A program made the translations under genes and the position numbers. DNA of 64,000 bases from Mycolicibacterium monacense (GTDB taxonomy: Bacteria > Actinomycetota > Actinomycetes > Mycobacteriales > Mycobacteriaceae): contig NZ_AP022617.1 in the NCBI RefSeq assembly GCF_010731575.1, forward strand, positions 1-64,000, written 5' to 3'. Numbering within the stretch: position 1 is the stretch's first letter; each line of letters starts with the position of its first letter. The notes beneath the pieces are model-generated. The model had not been told where the DNA came from, ran no database searches, and saw nothing but the letters and a program-made list of their open reading frames with translations. Shown piece by piece: positions 23,810 to 28,754 of this stretch.

Positions 23810-25852
23810 GTGACTGCCGTGACTGCGGCACCGGTGCGCGTTGTCGCGCGCCGCCGCTGGGTGGCGCCGGTCGCGGGCAGGACGCGCCGCGGAACGGCCG
23901 GGCGCCGCGAGATCCCCGCGCTCGACGGTATCCGCGCCGTCGCCGTGGCCCTCGTGCTGGCCGATCACGGCGGTGTGCCCGGTGTCTCGGGCGGGTTCCT
24001 CGGCGTCGACGTCTTCTTCGTCCTGAGCGGATTCCTGATCACCTCGCTGCTGCTCGACGAACTCGGCCGCACCGGGCGGGTCGACCTGCGCGGGTTCTGG
24101 ATCCGGCGGGCCCGCCGCCTGCTGCCCGCCCTGCTCGCGATGGTGGCCGCGGTGGTCGCCGCGCGGGTGTTCTTCCCACCCGACGCCGTCACCACGCTGC
24201 GCGACGACGCCGTCGCCGCGTTCTTCTGGGTGGCCAACTGGGCGTTCGTCGCGCAGCACACCGACTACTTCTCTCAGGGCAGCCCGCCGTCACCGCTGCA
24301 GCACACCTGGTCGCTCGGCGTCGAGGAGCAGTTCTACCTGGTGTGGCCGCTGCTGCTGATCGCCGTCGTCGGGGTGTTGGCGATCCGGCGGTCCGCGCCC
24401 ACGCTGCGGGCGGTGCGGTGGGGGGTGTTCGGGCTGGCGGTGGTCGGTGGGGCGGCGTCGGCGACGGCCGCAGTGCTGCTGACCTCCGAGGCGAGCGCCA
24501 ACCGGGTGTACTTCGGCACCGACACCCGCGTACAGGCCCTGCTCGTCGGTGCGGCCGCGGCGGCCCTGCTGGTGCGGGACTGGTCGACGGTCACGATGGG
24601 CACCCCGATCCGCGCGCGTTGGGGACGGTGGGTGGCACGCCTGCTGTCGGTGGTCGGGCTGGCCGGCCTGGCCGTGCTCGCGCACTACGCGACGGGTGCG
24701 CCGGCCGAATACCGGATGGGGCTGTTCACCGCGGCGGCGGCCGCGGCCGTGCTCGTCGTCGCCACCGCGGCGCTCGACCAGGCCGGTCCGGTCGCGCGTC
24801 TGCTCGCGCTGCGCCCGCTGGTGTGGCTGGGCACGATCTCCTACGGCGTCTACCTGTGGCACTGGCCGATCTTCCTGTTCCTCAACGGCGAACGCACCGG
24901 GTGGACGGGTTGGCCGCTGCTGATCGCCCGCTGCGCGGCGACGCTCGCCGTGGCGGTGCTGAGCTACTGGCTGCTGGAACGGCCGATCCGCCGGTGGCGG
25001 CCCGCGACGGTCCCGCAGCTTCCCCTGGCGTTGGCCACCGCGGCGACGGCCGCCGTCGTGACGATTTCGGTGGTTCCGGTGGGTGTGCAGCCAAGCGAGG
25101 ACCCTTCTACCAACCTGCTCGACATCAACTCCGCCGCGGCGGTGCTGCCGGAGCGGCCGATCCCCGTCGGCGCAGTCGCTCCGCAGCGACCACCGGGCAC
25201 CCGCAGCGTCGCGGTGTTCGGGGACTCGGTGGCGTGGACGCTGATGCGGTACCTGCCGGAGACCCCGGGCCTGCACTTCTCGAACTACACGACCATCGGC
25301 TGCGGTATCGCCCGCGGCGGCCCGTACAAGACGACCGGACAGACGCTGACGCAGAAACCGGAATGCGAGACCTGGCCGACCCGGTGGGCGCAGCGCATCG
25401 GCCACGACCGCCCCGACGTCGTGCTGTTGATGATCGGCCGGTGGGAGCTGGTCGACCGGATCAACGAGGGCAAGTGGACGCACGTCGGCGACGACGCGTA
25501 CGACGGCTACCTGCGCGGCGAACTGGACCGGGCGCTCGACATCCTCGGTTCGACGGGGGCGCGGGTGGTGGTCACGACGGCGCCGTACAACCGGCGCGCG
25601 GAACAGGCCGACGGCACCCTGTATCCCGAGGACGACCCCGACCGCGCGGACGCGTGGAACGAGTTGTTGCGGGAGGCCACTGCGAAGCGGCCCAACGTCA
25701 CGGTGCTCGACCTCAACAAGAAGCTCTCACCGCGCGGGTACTACACCAACCGCGTGGAGGGCATCCAGATGCGTGACGACGGCGTACACCCCACGAAGGA
25801 GGCCGTCGAATGGCTTACGCCGTGGCTGACCGAGGCGCTGTCGAAGAAGTGA
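23810..25852 (+). CDS. OafA/YrhL-type acyltransferase with C-terminal SGNH domain
   Basis: About 680 residues. The N-terminal acyltransferase-3 domain has EIPALDGIRAVAVALVLADH with the catalytic His, VDVFFVLSGFLITSLLL, WIRRARRLLPALL and TWSLGVEEQFYLVWPLLL, with about ten helices up to residue 400. The C-terminal SGNH-like domain has VAVFGDSVAWTLM (Ser nucleophile), LLMIGRWE, and the Asp/His pair in DDGVHPTKEAV. Such enzymes O-acylate extracellular sugars or lipids. GTG 23810 is preferred with GGGAGG 10 bp upstream; GTG 23777 or ATG 23792 would add up to 11 residues. Confidence 0.88.
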   Translation: MTAVTAAPVRVVARRRWVAPVAGRTRRGTAGRREIPALDGIRAVAVALVLADHGGVPGVSGGFLGVDVFFVLSGFLITSLLLDELGRTGRVDLRGFWIRRARRLLPALLAMVAAVVAARVFFPPDAVTTLRDDAVAAFFWVANWAFVAQHTDYFSQGSPPSPLQHTWSLGVEEQFYLVWPLLLIAVVGVLAIRRSAPTLRAVRWGVFGLAVVGGAASATAAVLLTSEASANRVYFGTDTRVQALLVGAAAAALLVRDWSTVTMGTPIRARWGRWVARLLSVVGLAGLAVLAHYATGAPAEYRMGLFTAAAAAAVLVVATAALDQAGPVARLLALRPLVWLGTISYGVYLWHWPIFLFLNGERTGWTGWPLLIARCAATLAVAVLSYWLLERPIRRWRPATVPQLPLALATAATAAVVTISVVPVGVQPSEDPSTNLLDINSAAAVLPERPIPVGAVAPQRPPGTRSVAVFGDSVAWTLMRYLPETPGLHFSNYTTIGCGIARGGPYKTTGQTLTQKPECETWPTRWAQRIGHDRPDVVLLMIGRWELVDRINEGKWTHVGDDAYDGYLRGELDRALDILGSTGARVVVTTAPYNRRAEQADGTLYPEDDPDRADAWNELLREATAKRPNVTVLDLNKKLSPRGYYTNRVEGIQMRDDGVHPTKEAVEWLTPWLTEALSKK

Positions 25853-25899
25853 TTTCGGCGTGGCTGGTCGCGCTGGGCGCGACTGCGCACGCCGAAATC
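25851..25899. terminator. hairpin, GATTTCGGCGTGC family (copy 3), bidirectional
   Basis: Arms GATTTCGGCGTG (from 25851) and CACGCCGAAATC (to 25899) with inner GTCGCG/CGCGAC pairs. It overlaps the acyltransferase stop and ends 6 bp before the chorismate mutase stop at 25905, separating convergent genes. Confidence 0.75.
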
Positions 25900-25904
25900 G
25901 CTGA

Positions 25905-26168
25905 CTAGTGGCCGAGGCGGCCGCGGCCCAGGCGCAGCAGCAGCATGGCCAGGTCTTTGCCCTCGGGGCCGAGCACGCTGTAGCGCTCGATGACCTTCAT
26001 CTCACGGCTGTGCACCAGGCGGGTGCCGCCCGACGCCATCCGCGCCCTGCCGATGATCTTGGACACCTCGGTGCGCCGCTGTACGGCGGCGAGGATGGCG
26101 GCGTCGAGTTCGTCGATCTCCTGACGCAGCGCGTCGATGTCGAGCGACTGATCCGTTTCGATGCTCAT
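25905..26168 (-). CDS. chorismate mutase (AroQ-delta type)
   Basis: 87 residues. It rearranges chorismate to prephenate, first step toward Phe and Tyr. Seen: ALRQEIDELDAAILAAVQRR, RARMASGGTRLVHSREMKVI and C-terminal LLLRLGRGRLGH, matching the small cytoplasmic mycobacterial enzyme (Rv0948c type) that is activated by complex formation with DAHP synthase through its C-terminus. ATG 26168 is chosen because GAGGAG lies 8 bp upstream; the longer frame from 26222 runs into the leader. The 5' leader carries a candidate aromatic attenuator (26229-26327). Confidence 0.93.
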   Translation of the reverse strand: MSIETDQSLDIDALRQEIDELDAAILAAVQRRTEVSKIIGRARMASGGTRLVHSREMKVIERYSVLGPEGKDLAMLLLRLGRGRLGH

Positions 26169-26228
26169 CTCTGACTCCTCGTGTGGGGGTTCTGGTCTCA
26201 TCCGGTTTCGGGCCTCACACAAGAGAAG

Positions 26229-26259
26229 AGCCCCGGATCCGGATGCGGACCGCGGGGCT
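26229..26259 (-). terminator. candidate attenuator terminator upstream of chorismate mutase
   Basis: On the minus strand AGCCCCG pairs with CGGGGCT (7 bp), then after a bulged C, GGTCCG pairs with CGGATC (6 bp, one G-U) around the tetraloop CATC. The stem is followed by the pyrimidine-rich CTTCTCTT. It begins 11 nt after the stop of an aromatic-rich leader peptide and lies 61 nt before the chorismate mutase ATG. An alternative antiterminator is possible: CGGCCTGCGG (26285-26294, in the leader ORF) can pair with CCGCGGTCCG (26246-26255, left arm of this hairpin) at 9 of 10 positions. Confidence 0.6.
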
Positions 26260-26270
26260 GAAGGAAGCAG

Positions 26271-26327
26271 CTAGACCACGGGCACCGCAGGCCGGTACCC
26301 GTAAAAAAATCGCCACTGGTCAAGCAC
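26271..26327 (-). CDS. aromatic-rich leader peptide (putative attenuator)
   Basis: An 18-codon frame from GTG 26327 to TAG 26271 encodes VLDQWRFFYGYRPAVPVV (Met-initiated in the cell). Five of residues 5-11 are Trp, Phe, Phe, Tyr, Tyr, the end products of the pathway that chorismate mutase feeds or competes with. A possible -35 TTGCGC (26359-26364, minus) and -10 CAGACT (26335-26340), 18 bp apart, would start RNA at about 26328, making the peptide nearly leaderless, which is common in mycobacteria and would explain the lack of a close Shine-Dalgarno. Segment CGGGTACC (26294-26301) can pair with GGTGCCCG (26279-26286), giving a 1:2 hairpin that excludes the antiterminator. Function is inference from architecture. 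Confidence 0.6.
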   Translation of the reverse strand: MLDQWRFFYGYRPAVPVV

Positions 26328-26399
26328 GGTTGTCAGTCTGCCACCTGCGGCCGTGCCAGCGCAAAGAGTGTCACCGTGCGGCGGTAAGTTGGGACAGAC

Positions 26400-28754
26400 A
26401 TGAGTGTGAACGTGACTGAACCGAGATCCCGGCCTGACGACAGGGCCGAGGAACTCCTCGACGGCCTCAACCCGCAGCAGCGCCAGGCGGTACTGCACGA
26501 GGGGTCGCCGCTGCTGATCGTGGCCGGCGCCGGGTCGGGTAAGACCGCGGTGCTGACCCGCCGCATCGCCTACCTGCTGGCCGCCCGCGACGTCGGCGTC
26601 GGCCAGGTGCTGGCCATCACGTTCACCAACAAGGCCGCCGCCGAGATGCGCGAACGCGTCGTCGGACTGATCGGCCCGCGCGCCAGGAGCATGTGGGTGG
26701 CGACGTTCCACTCGACGTGTGTGCGGATCCTGCGCAACCAGGCGTCGCTGCTGCCCGGGCTGAACTCCAACTTCTCGATCTACGACGCCGACGATTCACG
26801 GCGGCTGCTGTTGATGATCGGCAAGGACATGGGCCTGGACACCAAGAAGTACTCGCCCCGCCTGCTGTCCAACGGGATCTCGAACCTGAAGAACGAGCTG
26901 ATCGGGCCCGAACAGGCCGCCGCCGAGGCGTCGGAGGCCGCCGACGACCTGGCCCGCATCATCGCCGACGTCTACGCCGAGTACCAGCGCCGGCTGCGCG
27001 CCGCCAACGCGCTGGACTTCGACGACCTGATCGGCGAGACGGTCGCTGTGCTGCAACGTTTTCCGCAGATCGCGCAGTACTACCGCCGCCGGTTCCGGCA
27101 CATCCTGGTCGACGAATACCAGGACACCAACCACGCCCAGTACGTGCTGGTGCGCGAACTCGCAGGACATGGGGCCCACGACACGGATGACGATGGCGTG
27201 GCACCGGCGGAGCTCTGCGTGGTGGGCGACGCCGACCAGTCGATCTACGCGTTCCGCGGTGCGACGATCCGCAACATCGAGGACTTCGAACGCGACTATC
27301 CCAACGCGACGACCATCCTGCTCGAGCAGAACTACCGCTCCACCCAGACCATCCTCAACGCCGCCAACTCGGTGATCGCCCGCAACGCCGGCCGGCGCGA
27401 GAAGCGGCTGTGGACCGACTCCGGTCACGGGGAGCTGATCGTCGGCTACGTCGCCGACAACGAACACGACGAGGCCCGGTTCGTCGCGCAGGAGATCGAC
27501 CGGCTGGCCGATGACGGCCACAGCTATAACGATTTCGCCGTCTTCTACCGGACCAACAACAACTCCCGTGCGTTGGAAGAGGTGTTCATCCGCGCCGGCA
27601 TCCCGTACAAGGTCGTCGGCGGCGTCCGGTTCTACGAACGCCGCGAGATCCGCGACATCGTCGCCTACCTGCGGGTGCTCGACAACCCCGGCGACTCGGT
27701 GAGCATGCGCCGCATCCTCAACACCCCGCGGCGCGGGATCGGCGACCGGGCCGAGGCGTGTGTGGCGGTGTACGCCGAGAACACCGGTGCCAGCTTCAAC
27801 GACGCGCTGCAGGCCGCCGCCGAGGGCAAGGTGCCGATGCTCAACACCCGCTCGGAGAAGTGCATCGCGAGTTTCGTGCAGATGCTCGACGATCTGCGCG
27901 GCCGCCTCGGTGACGAACTCGGCGAACTCGTCGAGGCGGTGCTCGACCGCACCGGCTACCGCGCGGAGCTCGAGGCGTCCAATGACCCGCAGGATCTCGC
28001 GCGGCTGGACAACCTCAACGAATTGGTCAGCGTCGCACACGAGTTCAGCATCGACCGGGCGAACGCCGCGGCGCTGGCCGAAGACCTCGACGAACCGGTC
28101 GACGAGGACATCCCCGATACCGGTGTGCTGGCGCAGTTCCTCGAGCGGGTGTCGCTGGTGGCCGACGCCGACGACATCCCCGAGCACGGCTCGGGCGTCG
28201 TCACCATGATGACGCTGCACACCGCCAAGGGACTGGAGTTCCCCGTCGTGTTCGTCACCGGCTGGGAGGACGGCATGTTCCCGCACATGCGGGCACTCGG
28301 CGATCCCAACGAACTGTCCGAGGAACGCCGGCTGGCCTACGTCGGCATCACCCGGGCCCGGCAACGGCTCTATCTCAGCCGGGCCAAGGTGCGCTCGTCG
28401 TGGGGGCAACCCATGCTCAACCCGGAGTCGCGGTTCCTGCGGGAGATCCCGCAGGAGCTCATCGACTGGCGGCGCACCGATCCGACACCGTCGTTCAGCG
28501 CGCCCGGCCGGATGTCGTCGGGCTCCTCCGGTACGGGTTTCGGGGCACCGCGCCCGTCGCCGATGCGCTCGGGTGGCGGTAAGAAGCCGCTGATCGTGCT
28601 CGAACCGGGTGACCGCATCAACCACGACAAGTACGGACTGGGCCGCGTCGAAGAGGTCTCGGGCGTCGGCGAATCCGCGATGTCACTGATCGACTTCGGC
28701 AGCGCCGGACGCGTCAAGCTGATGCACAACCACGCCCCGGTGCAGAAGCTCTAA
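26400..28754 (+). CDS. uvrD1: ATP-dependent DNA helicase UvrD1/PcrA
   Basis: 784-residue superfamily 1A 3'-5' helicase in excision repair and, in mycobacteria, Ku-dependent unwinding. Motifs: Q-motif LNPQQRQAV, Walker A GAGSGKTAV at residues 43-51, TFTNKAAAEMRERV, Walker B/DExx in ILVDEYQDTNHAQY near 237, VVGDADQSIYAFRGA (motif III), LEQNYRSTQ (IV), TLHTAKGLEFPVVFV (V) and YVGITRARQRLYL (VI). The C-terminus (LEPGDRINHDKYGLGRVEEV) is the Tudor-like RNA polymerase-interacting domain. ATG 26400. Last 4 bp overlap a convergent membrane-protein gene. LigD at the window start is a functional partner in end joining. Confidence 0.97.
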   Translation: MSVNVTEPRSRPDDRAEELLDGLNPQQRQAVLHEGSPLLIVAGAGSGKTAVLTRRIAYLLAARDVGVGQVLAITFTNKAAAEMRERVVGLIGPRARSMWVATFHSTCVRILRNQASLLPGLNSNFSIYDADDSRRLLLMIGKDMGLDTKKYSPRLLSNGISNLKNELIGPEQAAAEASEAADDLARIIADVYAEYQRRLRAANALDFDDLIGETVAVLQRFPQIAQYYRRRFRHILVDEYQDTNHAQYVLVRELAGHGAHDTDDDGVAPAELCVVGDADQSIYAFRGATIRNIEDFERDYPNATTILLEQNYRSTQTILNAANSVIARNAGRREKRLWTDSGHGELIVGYVADNEHDEARFVAQEIDRLADDGHSYNDFAVFYRTNNNSRALEEVFIRAGIPYKVVGGVRFYERREIRDIVAYLRVLDNPGDSVSMRRILNTPRRGIGDRAEACVAVYAENTGASFNDALQAAAEGKVPMLNTRSEKCIASFVQMLDDLRGRLGDELGELVEAVLDRTGYRAELEASNDPQDLARLDNLNELVSVAHEFSIDRANAAALAEDLDEPVDEDIPDTGVLAQFLERVSLVADADDIPEHGSGVVTMMTLHTAKGLEFPVVFVTGWEDGMFPHMRALGDPNELSEERRLAYVGITRARQRLYLSRAKVRSSWGQPMLNPESRFLREIPQELIDWRRTDPTPSFSAPGRMSSGSSGTGFGAPRPSPMRSGGGKKPLIVLEPGDRINHDKYGLGRVEEVSGVGESAMSLIDFGSAGRVKLMHNHAPVQKL

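Follow-up and report, generated by a model that had tools for sequence, protein, structure and literature searches.

A probable phenylalanine/tyrosine-reading attenuator upstream of chorismate mutase in a Mycolicibacterium genome and its relatives

In the window, by which we mean the whole 64,000-nucleotide stretch of DNA analyzed here, a free-standing chorismate mutase (CM) gene is preceded on the minus strand by a short leader region, whose other flank is occupied by a divergent helicase gene (Table 1). The leader region holds promoter-like elements, a GTG-started open reading frame (ORF) with a cluster of aromatic codons, and three helices that can be drawn from the RNA, the last being a predicted intrinsic terminator; the CM gene begins 60 nt beyond the terminator hairpin. 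The original prediction had read this arrangement as an attenuator through which the aromatic amino acids control CM. Of the parts that it named, the minus-strand ORF, the 2:3 antiterminator, and the 13-bp bulged terminator followed by a pyrimidine run were all present as described, while hairpin 1:2 was found at its proposed place with 10 pairs instead of the eight listed.

Table 1. Features of the leader locus and its flanks in the window
Feature	Position	Strand	Basis or remark
-35-like TTGCGC	26359..26364	-	18 nt upstream of -10; sequence; promoter role inferred
Extended -10 element TGG-CAGACT	26335..26343	-	7 nt before GTG; TGNCANANT spacing recurs in relatives
Leader ORF VLDQWRFFYGYRPAVPVV	26271..26327	-	GTG 26327-26325, 18 codons, stop 26273-26271; probably leaderless
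Sensing codons Phe7 Phe8 Tyr9 (TTT TTT TAC), probable	26301..26309	-	Conservation and masking simulation
Segment 1, 5' arm of hairpin 1:2	26293..26302	-	Partner 26287-26278; 90.9% of cells paired, 72 rows
3' arm of hairpin 1:2	26278..26287	-	Pairs with 26302-26293
Segment 2, antiterminator 5' strand	26285..26294	-	Partner 26255-26246; covariation and swap test
Segment 3, antiterminator 3' strand and part of terminator 5' arm	26246..26255	-	Covariation, folds, swap test
Intrinsic terminator hairpin 3:4 (predicted)	26229..26259	-	13 pairs, one bulge; 26229 also opens pyrimidine run 26229-26221
Shine-Dalgarno-like GAGGAG of CM	26175..26180	-	Sequence
CM, 87 aa, AroQ type (Rv0948c kind)	25905..26168	-	PF01817 E 4.9e-10; NF005894, TIGR01808; all over cut-off
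Divergent helicase gene, uvrD-like by reading of sequence	26400-28754	+	Other flank of leader region

Within the 2:3 helix, nine of 10 positions pair, one of them as G-U, and C26291 stands unpaired opposite U26249. In the terminator, 26259-26246 pairs with 26241-26229 around a loop at 26245-26242, with C26252 bulged, and the pyrimidine run that follows, counted from 26229, reads UCUUCUCUU, a broken U run. The duplex energies calculated for the window were -18.0, -13.7, and -23.7 kcal/mol for 1:2, 2:3, and 3:4, respectively, and the 116-nt RNA folded at -50.7 kcal/mol, compared to -39.6 ± 3.3 kcal/mol for shuffled versions (z -3.4), one of 200 shuffles being as good. We regard these structures as beyond chance because the relatives show them as well. 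A strict consensus scan of the window called neither a sigma-70 promoter nor a terminator at the leader, since its rules admit neither a -10 of CAGACT nor a broken U run; by eye, TTTGCG or TTGCG recurs at the place of the -35 in many mycobacterial relatives. Between CM and the convergent gene, the window also holds a long inverted repeat at 25850-25905 (GATTTCGGCGTG...CACGCCGAAATC), which resembles a two-way terminator.

Searches for CM found it in 96 of 98 genomes sampled from the genus and in 181 of 200 sampled from the order, two sets that overlap. From among all matches, we examined 175 CM upstream regions (55 loci from searches and 120 taken by place), and 155 of them carried an F/Y leader, 152 recognized by script and three, decayed or variant, by eye (L060 in the genus, L150 in f4, and L166 in f16). 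The script found leaders in 95 of 104 regions from the window's own genus and in none of eight from other genera of the same family; in other families, the counts were 28/29 (f14), 7/9 (f4), 6/7 (f15), 7/8 (f16), and 4/4 (f12), and in small families, 2/2 (f5), 1/2 (f10), 1/1 (f3), and 1/1 (f9). An F/Y leader was thus lacking in eight of the 104 genus regions, once the one seen by eye is counted, and in all eight regions from the other genera of the family. Three regions in which no leader was found (L133, L149, and L160) belong to genomes that each have two CM matches. Some regions carried something else ahead of CM: in L048, of the same family, a short ORF without an aromatic cluster (VIETAVRRRLLPSVDLPATRQGDCR) is followed by a terminator-like hairpin; the short ORF of L152, MQTPSAFCFFHHRVLVAEAF, is of another kind and may be an aromatic leader unrelated to this one; and in L079 the end of what resembles a transposase frame has apparently taken the place of the region, leaving only the 3' part of the terminator (by eye).

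The association with CM was also recovered by a scan blind to the gene, in which the pattern TWYTAYGGNNNCSGGNNNSCGGNNNCCGT, combining codons and stem, was run over named genomes and returned at least 120 matching stretches. Among the 120 matches listed, CM lay within about 800 nt downstream in 115; as for the others, in L257 and L266 the leader falls at the border of the sequence examined, and L185, L195, and L198 look like chance matches. Named carriers include Mycobacterium, Mycolicibacterium, Saccharopolyspora, Lentzea, Pseudonocardia, Plantactinospora, Dactylosporangium, Blastococcus, Geodermatophilus, Klenkia, and Nakamurella, together with Amycolatopsis and Micromonospora, both genera of antibiotic producers. 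Two stretches, L180 (titled Bacillus sp. AZ43, a name that is unverified) and L211 (Candidatus Melainabacteria), carry the actinobacterial leader and CM and are probably misnamed or contaminating contigs.

Across the 152 scripted leaders, the three positions before a conserved Gly (-3, -2, and -1) were F in 147, F in 127 (Y in 10), and Y in 145, respectively, and the residue following the Gly was Y in only 103. Tryptophan occupied the position of W5 in eight leaders and occurred anywhere in the leader in 18; the three codons before the Gly were free of W in 152/152, a count partly built in by the regular expression used for selection. Because that expression partly forces the absence of W, we ran a promoter-anchored test in which aromatic residues played no part in the selection: an ORF qualified if it had 10-45 codons and began 5-8 nt after TGNCANANT. 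Such an ORF was present in 133 of the 175 regions; 127 of the 133 had at least two F/Y in four residues, 106 had at least three, and none had two W in four residues. The conserved W/F/Y-rich ORF that had been predicted therefore holds for F and Y (127/133) but not for W (8/152 at W5). The first Phe codon was TTT in 144 of 152 leaders, compared to a single TTT among the 68 Phe codons of four window ORFs, and a control codon that is rare suits an attenuator. The F/F/Y triplet thus supplies the cluster of pathway-product codons seen in trp/phe-type attenuators, and it lies before a gene, identified as CM by Pfam and NCBIfam, for making the amino acids that it would sense. CM stands where the route to Phe and Tyr leaves chorismate, and these two are exactly the products that the triplet encodes.

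We also analyzed the spacing between the -10 motif and the start codon. With the strict motif TGNCANANT, the distance was 6 nt in 91 leaders, 7 nt in 34, and 8 nt in one, and 26 of the 152 had no motif, such that the start codon followed at 6-7 nt in 125/152. With the looser motif, the distances were 6 nt in 93, 7 nt in 37, 5 nt in two, and 8 nt in one, with none in 19; the resulting figure of 130/152 reflects both the relaxed motif and a preference for candidates that have one. The usual distance from -10 to +1 would put the RNA start at the leader's start codon, which would leave no space for a Shine-Dalgarno site. Given this geometry in most leaders, the RNA is probably leaderless, in line with the nearly leaderless start proposed for the window.

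We then turned to an alignment of 72 leaders below about 86% identity, chosen by CM homology and codon motif and not by stem. For helices 1:2 and 3:4, 88.4% of 1488 cells were paired and 14 of 21 pairs showed double changes; none of 500 shuffles reached any of five measures, and slid versions of these helices were at most 46.4% paired, one slide also having 14 doubly changed pairs. For the antiterminator 2:3, 81.8% of 639 cells were paired, double-change cells numbered 60 compared to 16.9 in shuffles (0/500), and the covariation score was 0.250, compared to 0.133 for shuffles and 0.158 for the best slid version. The number of doubly changed antiterminator pairs, five, was not special, 114 of 500 shuffles reaching it. 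Swaps at the level of families were seen at 40-108 (A-U to G-C), 41-107 (C-G to G-C), 42-106 (C-G to U-A), and 43-105 (C-G to G-C), and since the changes fall between families, independent events in this helix are few. In a swap test on 68 of the 72 rows (L019, L033, L061, and L098, with a missing or eroded terminator, were dropped), segment 2 paired with its own segment 3 at -14.21 kcal/mol, compared to -11.45 ± 0.28 kcal/mol with shuffled partners, and none of 2000 shuffles was as low. Inside Mycobacterium, the 2:3 helix was weaker, with a mean of 6.4 of 9 pairs, and its own partner ranked at the neutral value of 0.50 when segment 3 was kept fixed and at 0.78 when segment 2 was; in f4, the latter rank was 0.40. 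When the mixed alignment, in which loop lengths vary between families, was folded with RNAalifold, only nine pairs were recovered. All three helices, the antiterminator included, carry compensatory changes, and the support for the antiterminator is weaker inside Mycobacterium. As in trp/phe-type attenuators, antiterminator and terminator exclude one another, again with less support in that genus. The comparison of CM upstream regions across the order thus bore out the original prediction in both conserved Phe/Tyr codons and three covarying stems.

The alignment also bears on two other ways in which such a leader could act. In one, the nascent chain FFYGYRPAVPVV would be a ribosome-arrest peptide that stalls on a small molecule or antibiotic, tRNA charging not being read. 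The entire peptide is indeed well conserved in Mycobacterium, including its end RPAVPVV, as this would lead one to expect. However, that end is what hairpin 1:2 must encode, and between families it varies with the stem (RTPAPV, GSPAAV, HRVPVSV); moreover, the rare TTT at the first Phe in 144/152 would be needless for a sensor of the nascent chain, and only nine residues follow F/F/Y in the window. We therefore consider an arrest peptide very unlikely. In the other, the leader ORF would govern translation or Rho-dependent termination instead of intrinsic termination. This would suit the broken U run of the window, and leaderless short Cys ORFs are reported to act in mycobacteria (Canestrari 2020). 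Nonetheless, the terminator stem was paired in 86.4% of cells with 8 of 10 pairs doubly changed, and longer U runs follow it in many rows outside Mycobacterium (by eye), which makes control of this type unlikely.

To represent a stalled ribosome, we masked 13 nt (also 11 and 15 nt), beginning with the first nucleotide of the codon in the A site, in 71 rows, one of the 72 lacking the necessary columns. With no ribosome, hairpin 1:2 had a median probability of 0.92 (43 of 71 rows), and 2:3 exceeded 0.5 in 19/71. When the ribosome stalled at the first or second Phe codon, hairpin 1:2 was gone, and the median 2:3 pairing was 0.92 and 0.96, exceeding 0.5 in 40 and 37 of 71 rows, respectively. At Tyr9, the median with 13 nt masked was 0.13, and 2:3 exceeded 0.5 in 37/71, 34/71, and 0/71 rows with 11, 13, and 15 nt masked. 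Stalls further downstream gave 0/71, a result true by construction because the helix itself is then masked. In the window, a stall at W5 left hairpin 1:2 at a probability of 1.0 under all three masks, and a stall at Y11 covered segment 2; over the 71 rows, the W5 stall was less clear, with 1:2 in 30-36 and 2:3 in 21-27. Stalling at the aromatic codons had been proposed to free segment 2; the medians agree for F7 and F8, though 2:3 exceeded 0.5 in no more than 40 of the 71 rows, and the outcome for Y9 depends on the size of the mask, while W5 and Y11 do not fit in the window. The working sensing codons are thus probably the Phe-Phe-Tyr triplet, F7 and F8 together with, again probably, Y9. Since W5 is rare among relatives and, in the window, leaves 1:2 intact, and Tyr11 lies too far downstream, the switch would read Phe and Tyr and not the aromatics generally, and Trp does not appear, from the sequences compared, to be part of the signal.

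The window itself showed a second register for the antiterminator. With the RNA ending at 26246, the exact 2:3 helix was best, at -17.5 kcal/mol; with two more bases, another register (UGCGG:CCGCA plus CGUGG:CCGCGG) was best, at -19.7 kcal/mol, and this also sequesters segment 3. Because the competing register is more stable, the exact 2:3 register stayed at about 0.05 or less at every stall position tried once the transcript extended past 26246; to free the switch, the window would need either the second register or a transcript with exactly the right end. When arm 4 was complete, the terminator exceeded 0.5 in 56-65 of 71 rows in every ribosome state. Taken by itself, this last result would suit a fixed promoter-proximal terminator that accompanies an incidental small ORF and holds CM at a constant level. 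Yet a fixed terminator needs no conserved codons, no rare control codon, no start spacing, and no covarying alternative helix, and we hold it to be extremely improbable. For a ribosome-controlled switch, the same result means that the choice must be kinetic: as the classical model has it, the outcome is decided while the RNA is still being made.

Together, these results support the notion that a ribosome-mediated transcription attenuator sets CM expression through the charging of Phe- and Tyr-tRNA, a reading to which we give a probability of roughly 0.87. The leader, its codons, its helices with their covariation, and its start geometry are conserved; the start site, translation, stalling, termination, and response would take the following course. 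RNA polymerase would start at or beside the GTG, and a ribosome would load onto the leaderless 5' end. With Phe-tRNA or Tyr-tRNA in short supply, the ribosome would stall at Phe7, Phe8, or Tyr9 and cover the 5' arm of hairpin 1:2, and the freed segment 2 would pair with segment 3, such that the terminator would come too late and the CM gene would be transcribed. With both tRNAs charged, the ribosome would reach the stop codon and cover segment 2, segment 3 would then pair with segment 4, and transcription would end near 26229-26220. If no ribosome were loaded, hairpin 1:2 would form and the terminator would likewise be allowed.

With a cut-off of E 0.01, a covariance model of the CM leader matched at 76 places, in 75 of the 296 genomes searched in the class. 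The best 30 of these places all had CM; among 40 of the remaining 46 that were examined, six lay before CM, 20 beside a type I DAHP synthase, and 14 by neither. Four of the six CM places belong to a Streptomyces-like family, with leaders such as MLTHQAFLFTYGDRPTGCHGRAA, and one Streptomyces-like CM leader (L338) has W inside the cluster. DAHP synthase identity was tested in L340 (PF00793 with PF18152) and assigned to the others by similarity to L340; at L359 and L360, the model match fell on the strand opposite to the leader. In a search of the phylum, 13 of 149 genomes matched, and four of five new loci had a DAHP synthase, its leader coinciding with the match. Leaders of DAHP synthase genes (MQRNFWRFYGYRP..., MRTAFWFWYGDG..., and MNGYFGFWFFYGG...) were picked by at least three F/Y/W in eight residues, and W, which is not enforced because any three F/Y/W of the eight qualify, was present in 22 of 24 (L334-L337, L340, L341, L343-L346, L349-L352, L356, L359-L361, L367, L368, L373-L375, and L377). 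These Trp/Phe/Tyr-rich leaders occur in other actinobacterial families and classes, and L334 has, by eye, the same layout of hairpin, antiterminator, and terminator.

These loci bear on whether the CM leader is, as the original prediction had it, a general aromatic attenuator that reads Trp along with Phe and Tyr. Such a sensor could draw on the W5 of the window leader, on the W found somewhere in 18/152 leaders, and on the F-W-F-T-Y of L338, a CM leader from outside the order. On the other hand, W stands at the W5 position in just 8/152, two codons before the working triplet; a stall there keeps hairpin 1:2 in the window, though less clearly over the rows (30-36/71); and W is present instead in the sister leaders at DAHP synthase (22/24), the shared first step. 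We consider a general aromatic sensor highly improbable: the attenuator reading itself is supported, with Phe and Tyr as its signal and Trp left out.

The CM and DAHP synthase leaders may, we infer, be of common origin. A broader proposal, on which we are evenly divided, is that they form one old actinobacterial family of leaderless attenuators in which the choice of aromatic codons follows the position of the enzyme in the pathway, CM having Phe/Tyr and type I DAHP synthase having Trp/Phe/Tyr, and that deletions fusing the leader start codon to CM have removed the CM form several times. By eye, L020, L024, L034, and L070 have no leader but keep a -10-like site, with a GTG 6 nt downstream that opens the CM frame, and their CM messenger is probably leaderless. 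In three regions from other genera (L052, L114, and L115), the CM frame starts with a GTG that follows a similar -10 at a distance of 7-8 nt (by eye). In L011, the promoter-like site and the terminator are kept, the aromatic codons and hairpin 1:2 are gone, and an ORF runs through the terminator (by eye). Losses of the leader would release CM from attenuation.

Within the window's own genome, no further copy of the leader was found, the R1 model being significant at the window locus only (E 4.0e-24). A second match, at E 0.51, was set aside as a generic terminator by a tRNA-like stretch (by eye). The type II DAHP synthase of the same genome had no short ORF with three aromatics in eight within 600 nt upstream of its match, and a similar leader was likewise missing from the 600 nt that precede the family match to prephenate dehydratase. 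Rfam 15, searched up to E 1, gave only sub-threshold matches to unrelated families, two in the window and six in 16 relatives; a known riboswitch or T-box was accordingly dropped as a candidate, with no relevant match in either set.

Attenuators of this kind are known, and a CM leader family is undescribed as far as our literature search reached: a full-text search, assessed by titles and the openings of abstracts and covering mostly papers outside subscription, found no actinobacterial CM attenuator. What is gained here is a large alignment with covariation, made of leader peptides that are probably leaderless, and the tracking of pathway position by codon choice is directly testable. According to the available part of the literature, M. 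tuberculosis CM is weak alone and depends on DAHP synthase (PMC7762937); through a conserved switch, an enzyme known to be governed by its partner would come under the control of tRNA charging as well.

One comparison is with a 2005 survey that, like ours, made comparative predictions of attenuators in Actinobacteria. In the portion of that survey available, trp, ilvB, leuS, and trpS leaders were predicted, and phenylalanine/tyrosine operons were reported without conserved RNA structures upstream (PMC1262725); the CM leader would fill this Phe/Tyr gap. Among mycobacterial systems, the ilvB1 attenuator, described in M. tuberculosis, resembles the CM leader in having a uORF with sensing codons and a choice between terminator and antiterminator, but it senses branched-chain amino acids, as far as the consulted text of PMC13236596 goes; in the main text of that paper the word "chorismate" is absent, and CM may be among the loci shown in its Extended Data Fig. 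5. The cysteine-responsive attenuators share a leaderless short ORF before a biosynthetic operon (Canestrari 2020; candidates in PMC4633059, each in part), but they use poly-Cys codons and are termed translation attenuation in the same consulted text (PMC13236596), whereas the window leader has no Cys. The AroR leader of the C. glutamicum aroF operon, on the excerpts at hand, is likewise actinobacterial, with Phe-Tyr-Phe codons, a place in the shikimate pathway, and ribosome-mediated attenuation, but it controls DAHP synthase and responds to Phe and not Tyr (PMC4046766, PMC11802643), whereas the gene in the window is CM. Finally, E. coli pheL-pheA is similar in having a leader of Phe codons that attenuates a CM gene; compared by description, from the accessible part of PMC11802643, pheA is a CM-prephenate dehydratase fusion and its leader reads Phe-tRNA, whereas the leader described here has both Phe and Tyr codons, a probably leaderless start, and a CM that stands free.
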